From Thiotrichaceae bacterium (GTDB lineage Bacteria > Pseudomonadota > Gammaproteobacteria > Beggiatoales > Beggiatoaceae): a stretch of 64,000 nt of DNA. Within the stretch, counting starts at the first letter, position 1, and every line of letters begins with the position of its first letter. Below are positions 9,679 through 51,450 of the stretch, piece after piece. The position numbers were made by a program, and so were the translations under genes. The notes under the pieces are model-generated. The model did no database searches. It saw only the letters and a list, made by a program, of their open reading frames with translations, and was not told the DNA's origin. The stretch lies in contig JAABRD010000001.1 in NCBI GenBank assembly GCA_011391085.1, forward strand, positions 62,001 through 126,000. Reading direction: 5' to 3'.

Positions 9679-9853
9679 GGTAGTGAGGCAATGTGGGTGA
9701 TATGTTTACCCTCACCCCCGGCTCCTCTCCCAGAGCCTCTCCCAGAGGGAGAGGGGAGAAAACCACTGGTACCGCCGTTCCCCCCTCTCCCTCTGGGAGA
9801 GGGGCCGGGGGTGAGGGAAAATCTATGAATATCACCCACATTGCATCACTACC
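9679..9853. mobile_element. Family B MITE with 8-bp target duplication and a nested family D palindrome
   Basis: The element begins GGTAGTGAGGCAATGTGGGT and ends with the complement ACCCACATTGCATCACTACC. It is flanked on both sides by the perfect 8-bp repeat CCATTTTG (9671-9678 and 9854-9861). Inside lies a GC-rich family D palindrome (9709-9817). No transposase is encoded. Confidence 0.85.
9709..9817. repeat. Family D GC-rich palindrome
   Basis: CCCTCACCCCCGGC...GGGGGTGAGGG with internal CCCAGAGGGAGAGGGG arms. It reads PGPSPRGRG or PSPSGRGAGGEG in translation. Further copies lie at 13415-13510, 23244-23340 (inside a gene) and 51313-51409. Confidence 0.85.
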
Positions 9854-13414: not shown

Positions 13415-13510
13415 CCCTCACCCCCGCCCCCTCTCCCTCCGGGTGCGGGGAAAAAACCACTGGTGTTGCCTGTCTCCCCTCTCCCTCTGGGAGAGGGGCG
13501 GGGGTGAGGG
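13415..13510. repeat. Family D GC-rich palindrome
   Basis: CCCTCACCCCCGCCCC to GGCGGGGGTGAGGG, lying between two convergent genes (SET and FGE proteins). Confidence 0.8.
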
Positions 13511-21506: not shown

Positions 21507-24500
21507 ATGTTCGCTTTAGCCGGTTACAATATTCTCGAAGAACTTTATCATAACACGAAAACGATTGTGTACCGTGCCATTTTTGAACGGGACAACAGTT
21601 CGGTTATCATCAAAATTTTAAATGCTGACTACCCCTCGCCCCAAGAGTTGACTAAATTGAGATATGAGTATGAACTCACTCAAAAAATCAAATCTGCCGG
21701 GGTCATGAAGTCGTATCGACTCGAACCCTATCATAATAGTCTGGCCTTGGTGTTGGAGGACTTTGGCGGAAAATCGCTTCGAGACGTAATGGCCCGGCAT
21801 CCTTTGGACCTGGTCACGATTTTGAAGTTAGCCATTCAACTTGCCGAGACGTTAGGGGAGCTCCATAAACAGCAAATTATTCATAAGGATGTTAAACCGG
21901 ATAATATCATTTTCAATAGTGACACCGGTCAAGTCAAATTCACGGACTTTAGCATCTCCTCCCAAGGCTTCAGTGAGGGACAATCAGCCAGTTCTCCGTA
22001 CACTTTAGAAGGCACTCTCGCGTATATGTCCCCCGAACAAACCGGGCGAATGAATAGAAAGGTCGATTATCGTAGCGATTTTTACTCGTTAGGTGTGACT
22101 CTGTATGAATTAATAGCAAGTCGACTGCCGTTTGAGTCTAATGACCCGTTGGAATTGATTCACTGTCATCTGGCTAAACTGCCTGTGCTTCCGCATCTGT
22201 TAAACTCAGCGATACCTGTGTCGTTGTCTGGTATCATACTGAAATTATTAGAAAAAAATGCTGAACATCGGTATCAAAGTGCCCTTGGTTTAAAGACCGA
22301 TTTACAAATTTGTCTTCATCAACTTCAAACGATTGGAAGAGTGGAAGAGTTTGTCTGTGGACAATATGATATTATAGACAAGTTCCAGATACCTCAAAAA
22401 CTCTATGGCAGAACGACAGAGATACAAACGTTACTGACCACTTTTAATCAAGTGTGCCAAGGTAAACCGGAAATGTTGCTAATTTCTGGCTATTCTGGAA
22501 TCGGTAAAACGTCGCTGATTCAAGAAATTTACAAGCCCATCACGGCCAAACGTGGATATTTTATCATGGGCAAATTTGACCAGTTTCAACGCAATATTCC
22601 CTACAGTGCGCTTCTCAAAGCGTTTACCGAGTTAGTGAAACAATTGTTGGTAGAAACAGAAACCGTTCTGGCCCGGTGGCGCGAAAAACTTTTAGCCAGT
22701 CTTGGTATCAACGCCCAAGTGATTATCGATGTCATCCCAGAAGTCGAATTGATTGTTGGCAAACAACTTCCCGTGCCAGAGTTACCGCCAGCCCAAGCCA
22801 AAAATCGTTTTAACTTGGTTTTTCAAAACTTCATTAAGGTGTTCACCAAAGTCGAACACCCCTTGGTACTGTTCCTGGATGATTTACAATGGGCCGATAC
22901 AGCCAGTCTTAATTTCTTGCAACTGTTAGTCACCACGAGGGAAAATCACTATTTATTTGTCATTGGGGCATATCGTGACAATGAAGTTAATAGTAGCCAT
23001 CCAGTATGGCAGATGAAAGAAGAGATTCAACAAGCCGGCATTCTGATTCAACAGATTTATCTTGCCCCCTGGGAGGTTGCCACCATCAATCAACTTCTCC
23101 TGGACATGTTCAATGCTTCCTCAGAAGAAACGCAACACCTGGCCGACTTAGTCTTCCTCAAAACGCAGGGCAATCCTTTTTTTGTCAACGAATTTTTAAA
23201 ATCTCTTCATACCGAAGGACTGATTTACTTCGAATTATCTTCTCCCTCACCCCCGGCCCCTCTCCCAGAGGGAGAGGGGAGTATGGCGAGACCAATGGTT
23301 TTCTCCCTTCTCCCTCTGGGAGAGGGGCCGGGGGTGAGGGCCGCGGCCCCCGGTTGGCGTTGGAATCTAACTCAAATTCAGGCACGAGACATAACCGATA
23401 ACGTTGTCGAATTGCTAATGGTCAAAATTCGCAAACTCTCTCCGAAAACGCAAGAAGTATTGCAATTGGCCGCTTGTGTGGGGAGTTTTTTTCAAATGGA
23501 GACTTTAAAACTGATTTCCGAGAAATCCTTAAATAGCACCATAATGTCGCTTCAAGAAGCCGTTGCGGAAGGGTTTATTTTGCCTTTGACCCAAAGTAAT
23601 TTTCAGTTTGCCATATTTTGCAGTACCATCTTAAAAACCACGGAAAACTACCAGCTTACGGATGAATATAAATTTGCCCATGACCGGATTCGGCAAGCGG
23701 CCTATTCTCTGATGTCCTCGGCCCAACGGCAATCTTGTCATAGTAAAATTGGACGCATTTTGTTACACAGCACTTCTATAGAAAAACAAGAAGAACTGTT
23801 GTTCAATATCGTAAACCAACTTAATTTGGGACGCGAACTTCAAGATACGCAAGAGAAGAGAGACGAATTAGCCCAACTCAATTTGCGGGCCGGCCAAAAA
23901 GCCAAAGCCTCTGCTGCATTTGAAACTGCTTTGCGACACTTTAGGGTCGGAATAGAATTATTAGGAGAAGAGGGGTGGCAACGTCTCTACTCTATCGCTT
24001 TGTCTATAACGGTAGAAGCGGCTGAAATGGCTTACCTGACGGGCGAATTGGGGGACTTGGAAAACTTTATCGACACCGTGTTGCAACGGGCCCACTCATT
24101 GCTGGATAAAGTCAAAGTCTATGAAATTCGAATGCAGGCGTATAAGGCCCAAAACCAACCTCAACAAGCGGTGGAACTGGGGCTGTGGCTATTGAGGCAA
24201 TTGGGAGTCAAATTTCCCAAATATTCCTCTTCCCTAAACCTGACACGGAGTTATTGGCGAACCAAATGGGCCTTACGTGGCAAATCGGTGGCCCGTTTAG
24301 TGGACTTGCCCCCCATGCACGCACCGCAACTATTGGCCGCCATGCGCATCATGTTAAGCATCAGTCCCGCTGTCTATGCGATTCGCCCAGCGTTGTTGCC
24401 ATTGATTACGTTGACCCGTATTCAACTCTCGTTAAAACATGGAAATGCTTACGAATCGGCGCCTGCGTATGCCAGTTATGGCTACCTTCTGTGCGCTAGA

Positions 24501-26954
24501 GGAGACATTGAAACCGGTTTTCAATTTGGCCAACTGGCTTTGCAGTTGTTGGAAAAAAATCAGATGAAAGAACTGAAATCGAGAATTTTCCAAATTGTGC
24601 ATGGTGTGATAAACCATTATAAAAAGCCGTTGAGAAGCACTTTGAAACCGTTGCAAGAAGCCTATCAAAGTGGCCTGGAGACCGGGAATTTTGAATATGC
24701 GGCAATGTCTGCCACCACGTATGCGATGCACGCCTATTTAGCCGGCAAAGAATTGACCATCGTGGAACGAGAAATGGCCATGTACACCGAATCTTTTGTA
24801 CAACTCAAGCAGGAGGCGTCTTTGCAAGTGAATCATTTATATTGGCAAGCGATCTTAAATTTAAGAGGGTATAGTGAAAATCCAATTCGTTTGCAAGGCA
24901 AGGTGTATGATGAAGAGGAAATGTTACCACGACATCACAAAGCCCAAGCTAGAGGGTTAATTTTTCAAGTCTATACGCAAAAATTAATCTTAGGTTATCT
25001 ATTTGGTCAATATCCGGAAGCGTTTAAAAATACTCTGTTAGCTTCTCAACATATAGACGCCGTCATCGGTTCCCCGCTGGTGCCGTTGTTCCATTTTTAT
25101 GATTCACTGGCGCGATTAGCATGGTTTGAAAAGGGACCCAAAGTTGAACGCAAACAGACTTTAAAAATCGTGGCGTTCAACCAGAAACAAATGGAAGAGT
25201 GGGCACGTCATGCGCCGACGAATTATTTGCATAAATTTTATTTAGTGGAAGCCGAACGCGCACGGGTGTTGCATCGTGACGGTGACGCCAGAGAATGGTA
25301 TGACCAGGCGATTGCTTTGGCGCAAACACACGAGTATCTGAATGAAGAAGCTTTGGCCGCGGAGTTGACCGCGAAATTTTATTTAGCCAAAAGACACCCT
25401 AAACAAGCCCAAGTGTATCTGCGCGATGCCCATTATGCCTATTCACGTTGGGGGGCAACCGCAAAGGTCAAGGAGTTGGAACTGCGTTACCCGAAGCTGT
25501 TGACTCAACCATCAGCTTCTTCAACTCTACCATTGTCTTTCGAAACGTGTTCTCTCGTGCGTAATATTTCTTATGAAGTTCCTGAAGCGCGGTCTTCTGC
25601 GGTCCTGCAGGACCTGGCCAAGATGGCTACGACCACTATTCAAGGCGACCTGAGAGATTTTGATTTAAACACGGTATTCAAGGCTTCACAAGCGTTTGTC
25701 GGTGAAATCGTGCTAAAGCGTTTACTGGAAAAATTGATGACACTGGTCATTGAAAGTGCTGGGGCACAAACCGGTTTTCTGTTATTGGAACAACATGGCC
25801 AATGGACCGTTCACGCTAAGGCCACTGTTCACAGTCACGGCGTAGAAACGTCGCAATTAGGGTCTGTGGAACATCATGCAGAAGTGCCGGCGGGCATCGT
25901 TCATTATGTGGTTCGCACTAAAGAATATGTGGTGCTAAGTGATGCGACGGTGGCTACCAAATTTGCTAACGATTCCTACATTCAACAATATCAACCCAAG
26001 TCAGTATTATGTGCCCCGCTAGTGAATCAAGGTAAAACGATAGCCATTTTATATTTAGAAAATAATTTGGTGACCGGTGCCTTTACTCCCCAACGATTAG
26101 AATTGCTATATTTACTGTCTTCACAAATGGCCATAGCAATTGAAAATGCTAGGTTATATGCGGATTTGGAGGAGAAGGTTAAGGAACGTACCTTGGACAT
26201 TGCTGCCAAAAACTCAAAATTGATCGTTTTAAACGGACAATTGATAAAAGCCAATCAAGAAAAAAATGAGTTCCTCAGCATTGCGGCCCATGATTTGAAA
26301 AATCCCCTGGCCGCGATTCAAGGATTGGCAGAAATGATAGAAAGAGATTTTGATGAATTGCCTAAACCAGAGATTGTCGATTTGGCCAAAATGATTTCAA
26401 CCAGTTCTCAACAAATGTTTGAATTAATAAAAAATTTGTTGGATGTCAATCGCCTGGAATCCGGCAAACTCAACTTATCGTTAGGCGTTTTCAACATTTT
26501 GCCCGTCGTCGAATGGGTAGTCAATGGTTACAAGGACCGGGCTAAAACTAAAAATATCACTTTACATCTGGACCTCACTCAGTCAGAATATCTTGCCTTT
26601 GGCGATGAAAAAACCATTCGTCAGGTGTTAGACAATTTGATTTCGAATGCCGTTAAATATTCATCGCATAGTAAAAATATTTATATTCGGCTGATTCAAA
26701 CGAGACGCCATTTACGTTGTCAAATTCAAGACGAAGGCCCTGGTTTAAGTCTTGAAGACCAGCAAAAATTATTTGGCAAGTTCACACGTCTTACGCCGCA
26801 ACCCACGGGGGATGAAAATTCCACCGGGTTGGGTCTTTTCATTGTCAAAAAATTGGTTGAGGCAATGCAAGGGAAAGTATGGTGTGAAAGTGAGTTAGAG
26901 AGAGGATCAACATTTACAGTGGAATTGAGAACGGAAGGGGGGAATAATGAATAA
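21507..26954 (+). CDS. Trifunctional Ser/Thr kinase, AAA-type ATPase and GAF-sensor histidine kinase
   Basis: An 1815-residue signalling protein. Residues about 6-270 are a eukaryote-type kinase with HKDVKPDN (126-133) and DFS (147-149) in place of DFG. An ATPase of the AAA_16/STAND kind follows, with Walker A GYSGIGKT (328-335) and Walker B LVLFLDDLQWAD near 452-463. Residues about 760-1330 are helical TPR-like repeats. A GAF domain (about 1395-1555) and a coiled coil lead to a histidine kinase with phospho-acceptor His1595 (AAHDLKNP), an N-box VLDNLISNAVKY and GLGLFIVKKL. Such proteins occur in cyanobacteria and large sulfur bacteria; targets are unknown. A family D palindrome lies in frame at residues about 580-612 and appears as a PAPLPEGEG peptide. 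No partner regulator gene is adjacent. Confidence 0.9.
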   Translation: MFALAGYNILEELYHNTKTIVYRAIFERDNSSVIIKILNADYPSPQELTKLRYEYELTQKIKSAGVMKSYRLEPYHNSLALVLEDFGGKSLRDVMARHPLDLVTILKLAIQLAETLGELHKQQIIHKDVKPDNIIFNSDTGQVKFTDFSISSQGFSEGQSASSPYTLEGTLAYMSPEQTGRMNRKVDYRSDFYSLGVTLYELIASRLPFESNDPLELIHCHLAKLPVLPHLLNSAIPVSLSGIILKLLEKNAEHRYQSALGLKTDLQICLHQLQTIGRVEEFVCGQYDIIDKFQIPQKLYGRTTEIQTLLTTFNQVCQGKPEMLLISGYSGIGKTSLIQEIYKPITAKRGYFIMGKFDQFQRNIPYSALLKAFTELVKQLLVETETVLARWREKLLASLGINAQVIIDVIPEVELIVGKQLPVPELPPAQAKNRFNLVFQNFIKVFTKVEHPLVLFLDDLQWADTASLNFLQLLVTTRENHYLFVIGAYRDNEVNSSHPVWQMKEEIQQAGILIQQIYLAPWEVATINQLLLDMFNASSEETQHLADLVFLKTQGNPFFVNEFLKSLHTEGLIYFELSSPSPPAPLPEGEGSMARPMVFSLLPLGEGPGVRAAAPGWRWNLTQIQARDITDNVVELLMVKIRKLSPKTQEVLQLAACVGSFFQMETLKLISEKSLNSTIMSLQEAVAEGFILPLTQSNFQFAIFCSTILKTTENYQLTDEYKFAHDRIRQAAYSLMSSAQRQSCHSKIGRILLHSTSIEKQEELLFNIVNQLNLGRELQDTQEKRDELAQLNLRAGQKAKASAAFETALRHFRVGIELLGEEGWQRLYSIALSITVEAAEMAYLTGELGDLENFIDTVLQRAHSLLDKVKVYEIRMQAYKAQNQPQQAVELGLWLLRQLGVKFPKYSSSLNLTRSYWRTKWALRGKSVARLVDLPPMHAPQLLAAMRIMLSISPAVYAIRPALLPLITLTRIQLSLKHGNAYESAPAYASYGYLLCARGDIETGFQFGQLALQLLEKNQMKELKSRIFQIVHGVINHYKKPLRSTLKPLQEAYQSGLETGNFEYAAMSATTYAMHAYLAGKELTIVEREMAMYTESFVQLKQEASLQVNHLYWQAILNLRGYSENPIRLQGKVYDEEEMLPRHHKAQARGLIFQVYTQKLILGYLFGQYPEAFKNTLLASQHIDAVIGSPLVPLFHFYDSLARLAWFEKGPKVERKQTLKIVAFNQKQMEEWARHAPTNYLHKFYLVEAERARVLHRDGDAREWYDQAIALAQTHEYLNEEALAAELTAKFYLAKRHPKQAQVYLRDAHYAYSRWGATAKVKELELRYPKLLTQPSASSTLPLSFETCSLVRNISYEVPEARSSAVLQDLAKMATTTIQGDLRDFDLNTVFKASQAFVGEIVLKRLLEKLMTLVIESAGAQTGFLLLEQHGQWTVHAKATVHSHGVETSQLGSVEHHAEVPAGIVHYVVRTKEYVVLSDATVATKFANDSYIQQYQPKSVLCAPLVNQGKTIAILYLENNLVTGAFTPQRLELLYLLSSQMAIAIENARLYADLEEKVKERTLDIAAKNSKLIVLNGQLIKANQEKNEFLSIAAHDLKNPLAAIQGLAEMIERDFDELPKPEIVDLAKMISTSSQQMFELIKNLLDVNRLESGKLNLSLGVFNILPVVEWVVNGYKDRAKTKNITLHLDLTQSEYLAFGDEKTIRQVLDNLISNAVKYSSHSKNIYIRLIQTRRHLRCQIQDEGPGLSLEDQQKLFGKFTRLTPQPTGDENSTGLGLFIVKKLVEAMQGKVWCESELERGSTFTVELRTEGGNNE
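23244..23340. repeat. Family D palindrome inserted in frame in a coding region
   Basis: The 97-bp palindrome CCCTCACCCCCGG...GGTGAGGG is the same length as the intergenic copy at 51313-51409. Here it is translated as SPSPPAPLPEGEG and LLPLGEGPGVR in the kinase-ATPase protein, between LIYFE and GWRWNLTQIQ, which are normally close together in this family. Confidence 0.88.
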
Positions 26955-51270: not shown

Positions 51271-51450
51271 TAAGTAGTGAAGCAGAAATTTTCTGGTATA
51301 ATGACGCCCTTACCCTCACCCCCGGCCCCTCTCCCAGAGGGCGTGGGGAGAAAACCACCGATGTTGCCTGTCTCCCCTCTCCCTCTGGGAGAGGGGCCGG
51401 GGGTGAGGGCGACGATTGAAAATACCGTAAAAATTCTGCTTCGGTACTTA
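51271..51450. repeat. Family H element holding a family D palindrome
   Basis: Imperfect ends TAAGTAGTGAAGCAGAAATT and AATTCTGCTTCGGTACTTA flank a 97-bp family D palindrome (51313-51409). An end fragment of family H also lies at 8061-8106. Confidence 0.75.

Follow-up and report, generated by a model that had tools for sequence, protein, structure and literature searches.

An in-frame copy of a REPIN-like palindrome in an ATPase-region loop of a giant kinase from a Beggiatoa-like bacterium, with other palindromes in the same loop of other lineages

How a long G+C-rich palindrome comes to lie within the coding sequence of a giant signaling protein without breaking it, and what has become of the residues it encodes, is the question raised by a gene in a 64,000-nucleotide stretch of a Thiotrichaceae bacterium genome (contig JAABRD010000001.1, positions 62,001 to 126,000; hereinafter the window). 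The gene occupies positions 21507-26954 of the window on the forward strand and codes for a 1815-aa protein, in which a domain search recovers Pkinase, AAA_16, GAF, HisKA and HATPase_c domains. The palindrome, hereinafter element E, is found on the same strand at 23244-23340, and the ORF is open across it with no interruption, which bears out the preliminary description of a 97-bp palindrome in frame in a kinase-ATPase of this size. E differs sharply from its surroundings in composition (68.0% G+C vs 43.5% in the rest of the host ORF) and reads, from host residue 580, as PSPPAPLPEGEGSMARPMVFSLLPLGEGPGVRA. Judged by the loops of homologues and the predicted strands 573-576 and 616-619 (see below), the extra segment of the protein comprises host residues 577-615 (23235-23351, forward strand), and a G+C-rich 13-nt stretch on that strand adjoining E at about 23341-23353 (CCGCGGCCCCCGG) may also be part of the insert. 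As the nearest named homologues of the kinase are from Candidatus Parabeggiatoa, we term the genome Beggiatoa-like.

E is an inverted repeat of two 38-nt units with a 21-nt spacer. An inverted-repeat search of the window places its arms at 23244-23281 and 23303-23340 (both forward strand) with 97% complementarity, and each arm holds an inner hairpin of its own (23257-23279 and 23305-23327, respectively). The DNA of the loop (135 nt) has a folding energy of -100.8 kcal/mol as compared to -59.8 (sd 4.2) for its dinucleotide shuffles, i.e., 9.7 sd lower, and none of 200 shuffles folds as low. An Rfam search gives 17 matches (up to E-value 1), 15 of them on E, but all are to microRNA models and fall below the gathering scores and, E being a long hairpin, we take them as chance.

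E is abundant in its own genome (5.77 Mb, 140 contigs): besides the window copy, at least 39 sites match E over all or nearly all of its length at 90-95% identity, a lower bound as 40 of 357 candidates were scored. A census of 97 regions, which were selected because of matches in them and total 695,002 nt, gives counts that are likewise lower bounds: it recovers 137 E-like pieces, of which 114 are near-full and 16 measure 30-60 nt. Together, 108 copies yield a 97-nt consensus with ends CCCTCACC...GGTGAGGG and complementary outer pairs at 38 of 38 positions. Three further copies lie in the window itself, all on the reverse strand, at 9729-9817 (89 nt aligned, within an element of type A at 9679-9853), 13415-13510, and 51313-51409, the last with flanks of another outer element, B. 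Across 39 genomes, E matches are present in seven, own included, and outside the own genome they are pieces of about 20-40 nt. Among plasmids, 11 records match E, nine over most of its length at 76-78% identity (from Pseudanabaena, Tolypothrix, Microchaete, Klebsiella and Cupriavidus) and two over one arm at 92-95%, while a search of phages returned no E match.

The site of the insert in the protein is a loop that is short in most members of the family. A motif search of 119 homologue sources yielded 114 ORFs (L125, L126 and L135 gave no match; L113 and L116 were duplicates); a stricter version of the motif missed seven homologues (L029, L143, L146, L154, L157, L166 and L178) that were all caught by the looser one, and the remaining eight of the 15 matches that it missed are, by eye, chance matches. 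Between the LLxF and W.W motifs, the window kinase has 41 residues as compared to a median of 6 in the 113 other ORFs, 65 of which have 3-10 residues and 16 of which have 20 or more. Thus, the flanking segments are indeed close together in the family, as had been described earlier, and no displayed homologue loop carries the residues of the insert. The homologues include no close strain with an empty site, the nearest being 61% identical. In an AlphaFold2 model built with 76 sequences (mean pLDDT 85), the strands 573-576 (IYFE) and 616-619 (GWRW) stand 39 residues apart and, on our reading of the model, pair as one hairpin; the insert core between them (model residues 297-314, the host number being the model number plus 297) has pLDDT values under 50. 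Foldseek relates the model to Orc1/Cdc6, CED-4, Apaf-1 and a STAND protein, with low TM-scores (0.29-0.45 among the displayed rows, normalized by query length).

These observations are very probably explained by a multiplication of E in the genome followed by the entry of one copy, in frame, into the kinase loop, whereby the protein gained tolerated loop residues. E would be a non-autonomous, REPIN-like palindrome of two inverted hairpin units with more than 100 copies in the genome, one of which would have entered the kinase gene within the codons of an ATPase-region loop between two β-strands. As the frame survived the overall change in length and meets no stop within E, the protein would have gained roughly 30-36 proline- and glycine-rich residues in a loop that tolerates changes of length, and insertions of E that break genes would have been weeded out. 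The kinase insert is presumably translated, and it is probably near neutral.

The earlier view of the palindrome as intergenic elsewhere holds for most copies, but not for all: eight of the 114 near-full copies are read through in frame. Nine near-full copies lie between at least 100 open codons on each side, and in eight of these a single open frame runs from one flank across E into the other, where a third would be expected (p 0.00097); the single exception, on contig C108, is out of frame and has a stop. Besides the window kinase, the in-frame copies are found in its paralogue on C85, in a hybrid histidine kinase (C79; within the HATPase_c domain by the flanking residues), in a second histidine kinase (C68; upstream of HisKA, where a full unit is in tandem with two partial ones), in HypF (C128; with an additional half unit in frame), in a methyltransferase-domain protein (C140), in a protein with sub-threshold TPR and AAA matches only (C11; here the full E is accompanied by a partial copy), and in a 392-codon open stretch at about position 10082 of C98, which contains A together with E and has a 7-bp duplication. 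The ORFs on C98 and C108 have no Pfam or NCBIfam family match that counts and, being equally unsupported as genes, both are given no weight. Six of the eight in-frame copies lie in proteins with Pfam domains over the cut-off, and restricting the count to such proteins leaves six of six in frame (p about 0.0014 by the same rule). The case of HypF can be compared with a solved structure: against 3vth, it has 39 vs 10 and 32 vs 9 residues between aligned stretches, and both extra stretches coincide with E units. On two plasmids of Pseudanabaena galeata, annotated DNA methyltransferases (L237, L238) each contain an in-frame E-like unit matched by BLAST, with several more E-like units discernible by eye, and one of these genes lies beside the DISARM gene drmD.

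The same set of genes speaks to the concern that the kinase is an artefact, in which fragments of different genes were joined in assembly via a copy of the repeat. The genome is indeed a draft of 140 contigs, some of which end in E copies (e.g., C10, C37, C38, C61 and C124). However, both halves of the kinase align to the same homologues, in adjacent places and in one frame, and the E copies in Pfam-supported proteins are all in frame; further, a palindrome occupies the same loop in a genome of 10 contigs, and the two Pseudanabaena plasmids with E-like units in methyltransferases were deposited as complete. We therefore regard a misassembly as most improbable.

Most E copies are nested in larger inverted repeats, most often in element A, which has 8-bp target duplications. 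This raises the alternative that E reached the kinase as the core of such a larger mobile element, either A with its duplications or B, the outer parts of which were lost thereafter. The flanks could be read for 104 copies; 69 of these are within A and 24 match B loosely, the C85 copy being among the latter, and in C98 the whole of A is in frame together with E. Yet 11 of the 104 have neither, neither A nor B sequence is seen beside the window copy, and no target-site duplication is seen at its junctions. The preliminary description had attributed the preserved frame to the insert length plus any target duplication; the frame is intact, but no such duplication was found. An arrival inside A or B is accordingly unlikely for the kinase copy, and E presumably moves by itself.

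Element A, as seen at 9679-9853 of the window and at other loci of the genome, has ends GGTAGTGATGCAAT...ATTGCATCACTACC, mostly 8-bp duplications and varied interiors. Among 91 A end pairs, two of which share an end with another pair, 60 are accompanied by a perfect duplication of 7-9 bp, and E-like sequence lies within 64. The length of A plus its duplication is divisible by 3 in 30 of 44 E-bearing cases vs none of 15 others, a bias that may be a founder effect. With regard to a mover, we considered a RAYT transposase and rejected it for E: the sole PF01797 (Y1_Tnp) match in the genome is flanked by other palindromes (GTAGGGTGGATTAAGCG) and not by E. At this match (L058:13900-14830, contig C75), near-perfect GTAG-tagged palindromes GTAGGGTGGATTAAGCGAAGCGTATCCACC stand on both sides.

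The kinase loop also carries palindromes in other lineages. In a genome from another genus of the family (G003), a 77-nt palindrome is present in the loop of one of five tandem paralogues, with a net gain of 75 nt, and absent from the other four; it has at least 54 matches in its own genome (40 of 94 candidates scored), of which two are the place itself and three the flanks in paralogues. The loop insert of the cyanobacterium Microcoleus sp. EPA2 has at least 45 further matches in its own genome (40 of 90 candidates scored). In a Nostoc clade, eight of ten rows bear loops that we label palindrome-derived. Four of these eight genomes were searched for repeats: the inserts of L149, L129 and L141 recur at 14, 6 and 1 further distinct places (counted by hand), and that of L173 has two matches; the labels of L142, L168, L169 and L172 are based on likeness and folding. 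In 200 shuffles each, the observed folding energy is reached by none for L141, L149, L169 and L173, by one for L172, by eight for L168, and by 13 for L129 and L142. The inserts of the window kinase (E), G003, Nostoc L141 and Microcoleus show no significant mutual likeness, the best match being one of 16 nt between Nostoc and Microcoleus (E-value 0.007-0.011). On a quick tree from which the loop was left out, the 11 labelled rows need five changes, at least four of them forced by starred branches, though some of the five may be losses.

Inverted repeats (arms of 15 or more, up to 2 mismatches) are also enriched in the loop when all 114 ORFs are considered, with eight in 5,487 nt of loop vs 31 in 519,360 nt elsewhere (p 6.6e-9). 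The value becomes 3.6e-5 with Nostoc counted once, 0.00048 with the window copy also left out, and 0.0054 with the loop repeat of L097 removed as well; this pruning by lineage was applied to the loop repeats only, the rest of the ORFs being kept unpruned, and the loop had been selected on account of the window copy. The loop length is swollen by the inserts themselves, which works against the result, and its total is slightly too small as 14 of the 114 loops were miscounted, the end motif having been caught too early and the loop scored as -1 (the six displayed are about 6).

Two palindrome-like loops were rejected as repeat families: the insert of L097 (genome G001) matches only its own place in its genome, and that of Nostoc flagelliforme (L175) has a single weak further match. 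As several other long loops (L118, L109, L124, L127, L130 and others) have no excess folding, palindromes appear to be one source of loop growth and not the sole one. Elsewhere in these proteins, a second palindrome, AAACCTGACAGGTC...GACCTGTCAGGTTT, encodes NLTGLxDLSGL-like peptides (L024, L033, L043, L044, also L224) and sits in the linker before the ATPase domain in four kinases from three genomes; it has 97 forward pattern matches in the genome of the window (up to 3 mismatches) and none in the control. The G001 paralogues L033 and L097 also share a 42-nt coding palindrome, TTCGAGGCTAAAG...CTTTAGCCTCGAA, about 108-130 codons past the loop.

One may ask whether the insert has been domesticated, as the preliminary description had it, such that selection maintains the E peptide for a service to the kinase, for example the tuning of its ATPase switch. 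The intact frame in a large ORF with recognizable domains, the palindromes in the same loop of other lineages, and the eight of ten labelled Nostoc rows speak for such a role. However, the eight in-frame copies encode three different kinds of peptide (PSPPAPLPxGEG type in three, LTPGPSPxGRG type in four, and RPLSQGERGG type in one), which supports tolerance and not domestication; likewise, the insert is modeled with low confidence and the homologues manage with a median of six residues. In the window copy, 7 alignment columns depart from the consensus of the family, and we see no sign of a function of the peptide. The in-gene copies do not look younger, being slightly more diverged than the remainder (median of 11.5 off-consensus columns, n=8, vs 8, n=100), which tells against our main reading. 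A selected role for the peptide seems very unlikely, and we retain the capture of a tolerated insert as the preferred reading. A broader proposal, to which we give about an even chance, is that the loop between the two β-strands acts as a structural landing pad in this kinase/ATPase family, with about four independent captures of palindromes in Beggiatoa-like gammaproteobacteria and cyanobacteria, so that mobile palindromes would time and again supply large signaling proteins with new loop sequence; captures would be repeated because the loop tolerates proline- and glycine-rich inserts.

There is precedence for several of these features. As described in PMC2229807, the palindromic elements of Rickettsia (105-146 bp) are intergenic but also occur as in-frame fusions within protein genes; many of these are conserved, and one enzyme with such an element stays active (Ogata et al. 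2000, as cited there). The likeness to them drawn earlier stands: E is likewise a dispersed palindrome found both in and outside genes, and in the kinase it is in frame at a loop that is short in most homologues. However, the host is not Rickettsia and the likeness proposed is one of behavior; E is a REP-like doublet whose copies are read in different frames and often lie within a larger inverted repeat. According to Di Nocera et al. 2013 (PMC3733652), REP singlets and dimers with GTAG or CGTC tags occur within ORFs of free-living bacteria, where intragenic dimers or groups encode 20-30 residues and clusters 43-82, and the recB genes of two Xanthomonas species carry different REPs at about the same site. 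In contrast, the E consensus has neither tag, and the shared site described here is one ATPase-region loop in different genera of two phyla. REPINs, as presented by Bertels and Rainey 2011 (PMC3116915), comprise two inverted REPs and a spacer forming one hairpin, with singlets also occurring, and are mainly extragenic and tied to RAYT genes. E shares with them the two inverted units, the spacer, the single hairpin and the occurrence of single units (the 16 pieces of 30-60 nt among 137), but no RAYT gene flanked by E is present in its genome. From the repeat-rich genome of the sulfur bacterium Thiomargarita nelsonii, PMC4853749 reports MITEs with direct repeats, one of them in hupL as an interrupted gene, whereas the kinase frame is kept; unlike MITEs, the window copy of E has no target-site duplication, although the outer element A does show this MITE hallmark.

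In-frame palindromes are therefore known as a kind. For the E family, its host, its occurrence in HypF and the kinase, and the repeated use of a single loop in two phyla, we found no earlier account in the literature: a search in which subscription journals are mostly uncovered named neither the E repeat nor the shared loop, and a text search with four E-encoded peptide words returned no match. The present observations add to the protein-coding palindromes an untagged REP-like family, from the genome of a free-living bacterium resembling sulfur bacteria, and tie such palindromes to a defined site struck by different repeats in two phyla. They also offer a testable rule, namely that mobile palindromes persist in genes when located in loops and linkers. 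For annotation, they carry the warning that a translated repeat can be the source of peptides like PAPLPEGEG or SPSGRGAGGEG when these are met in large proteins.
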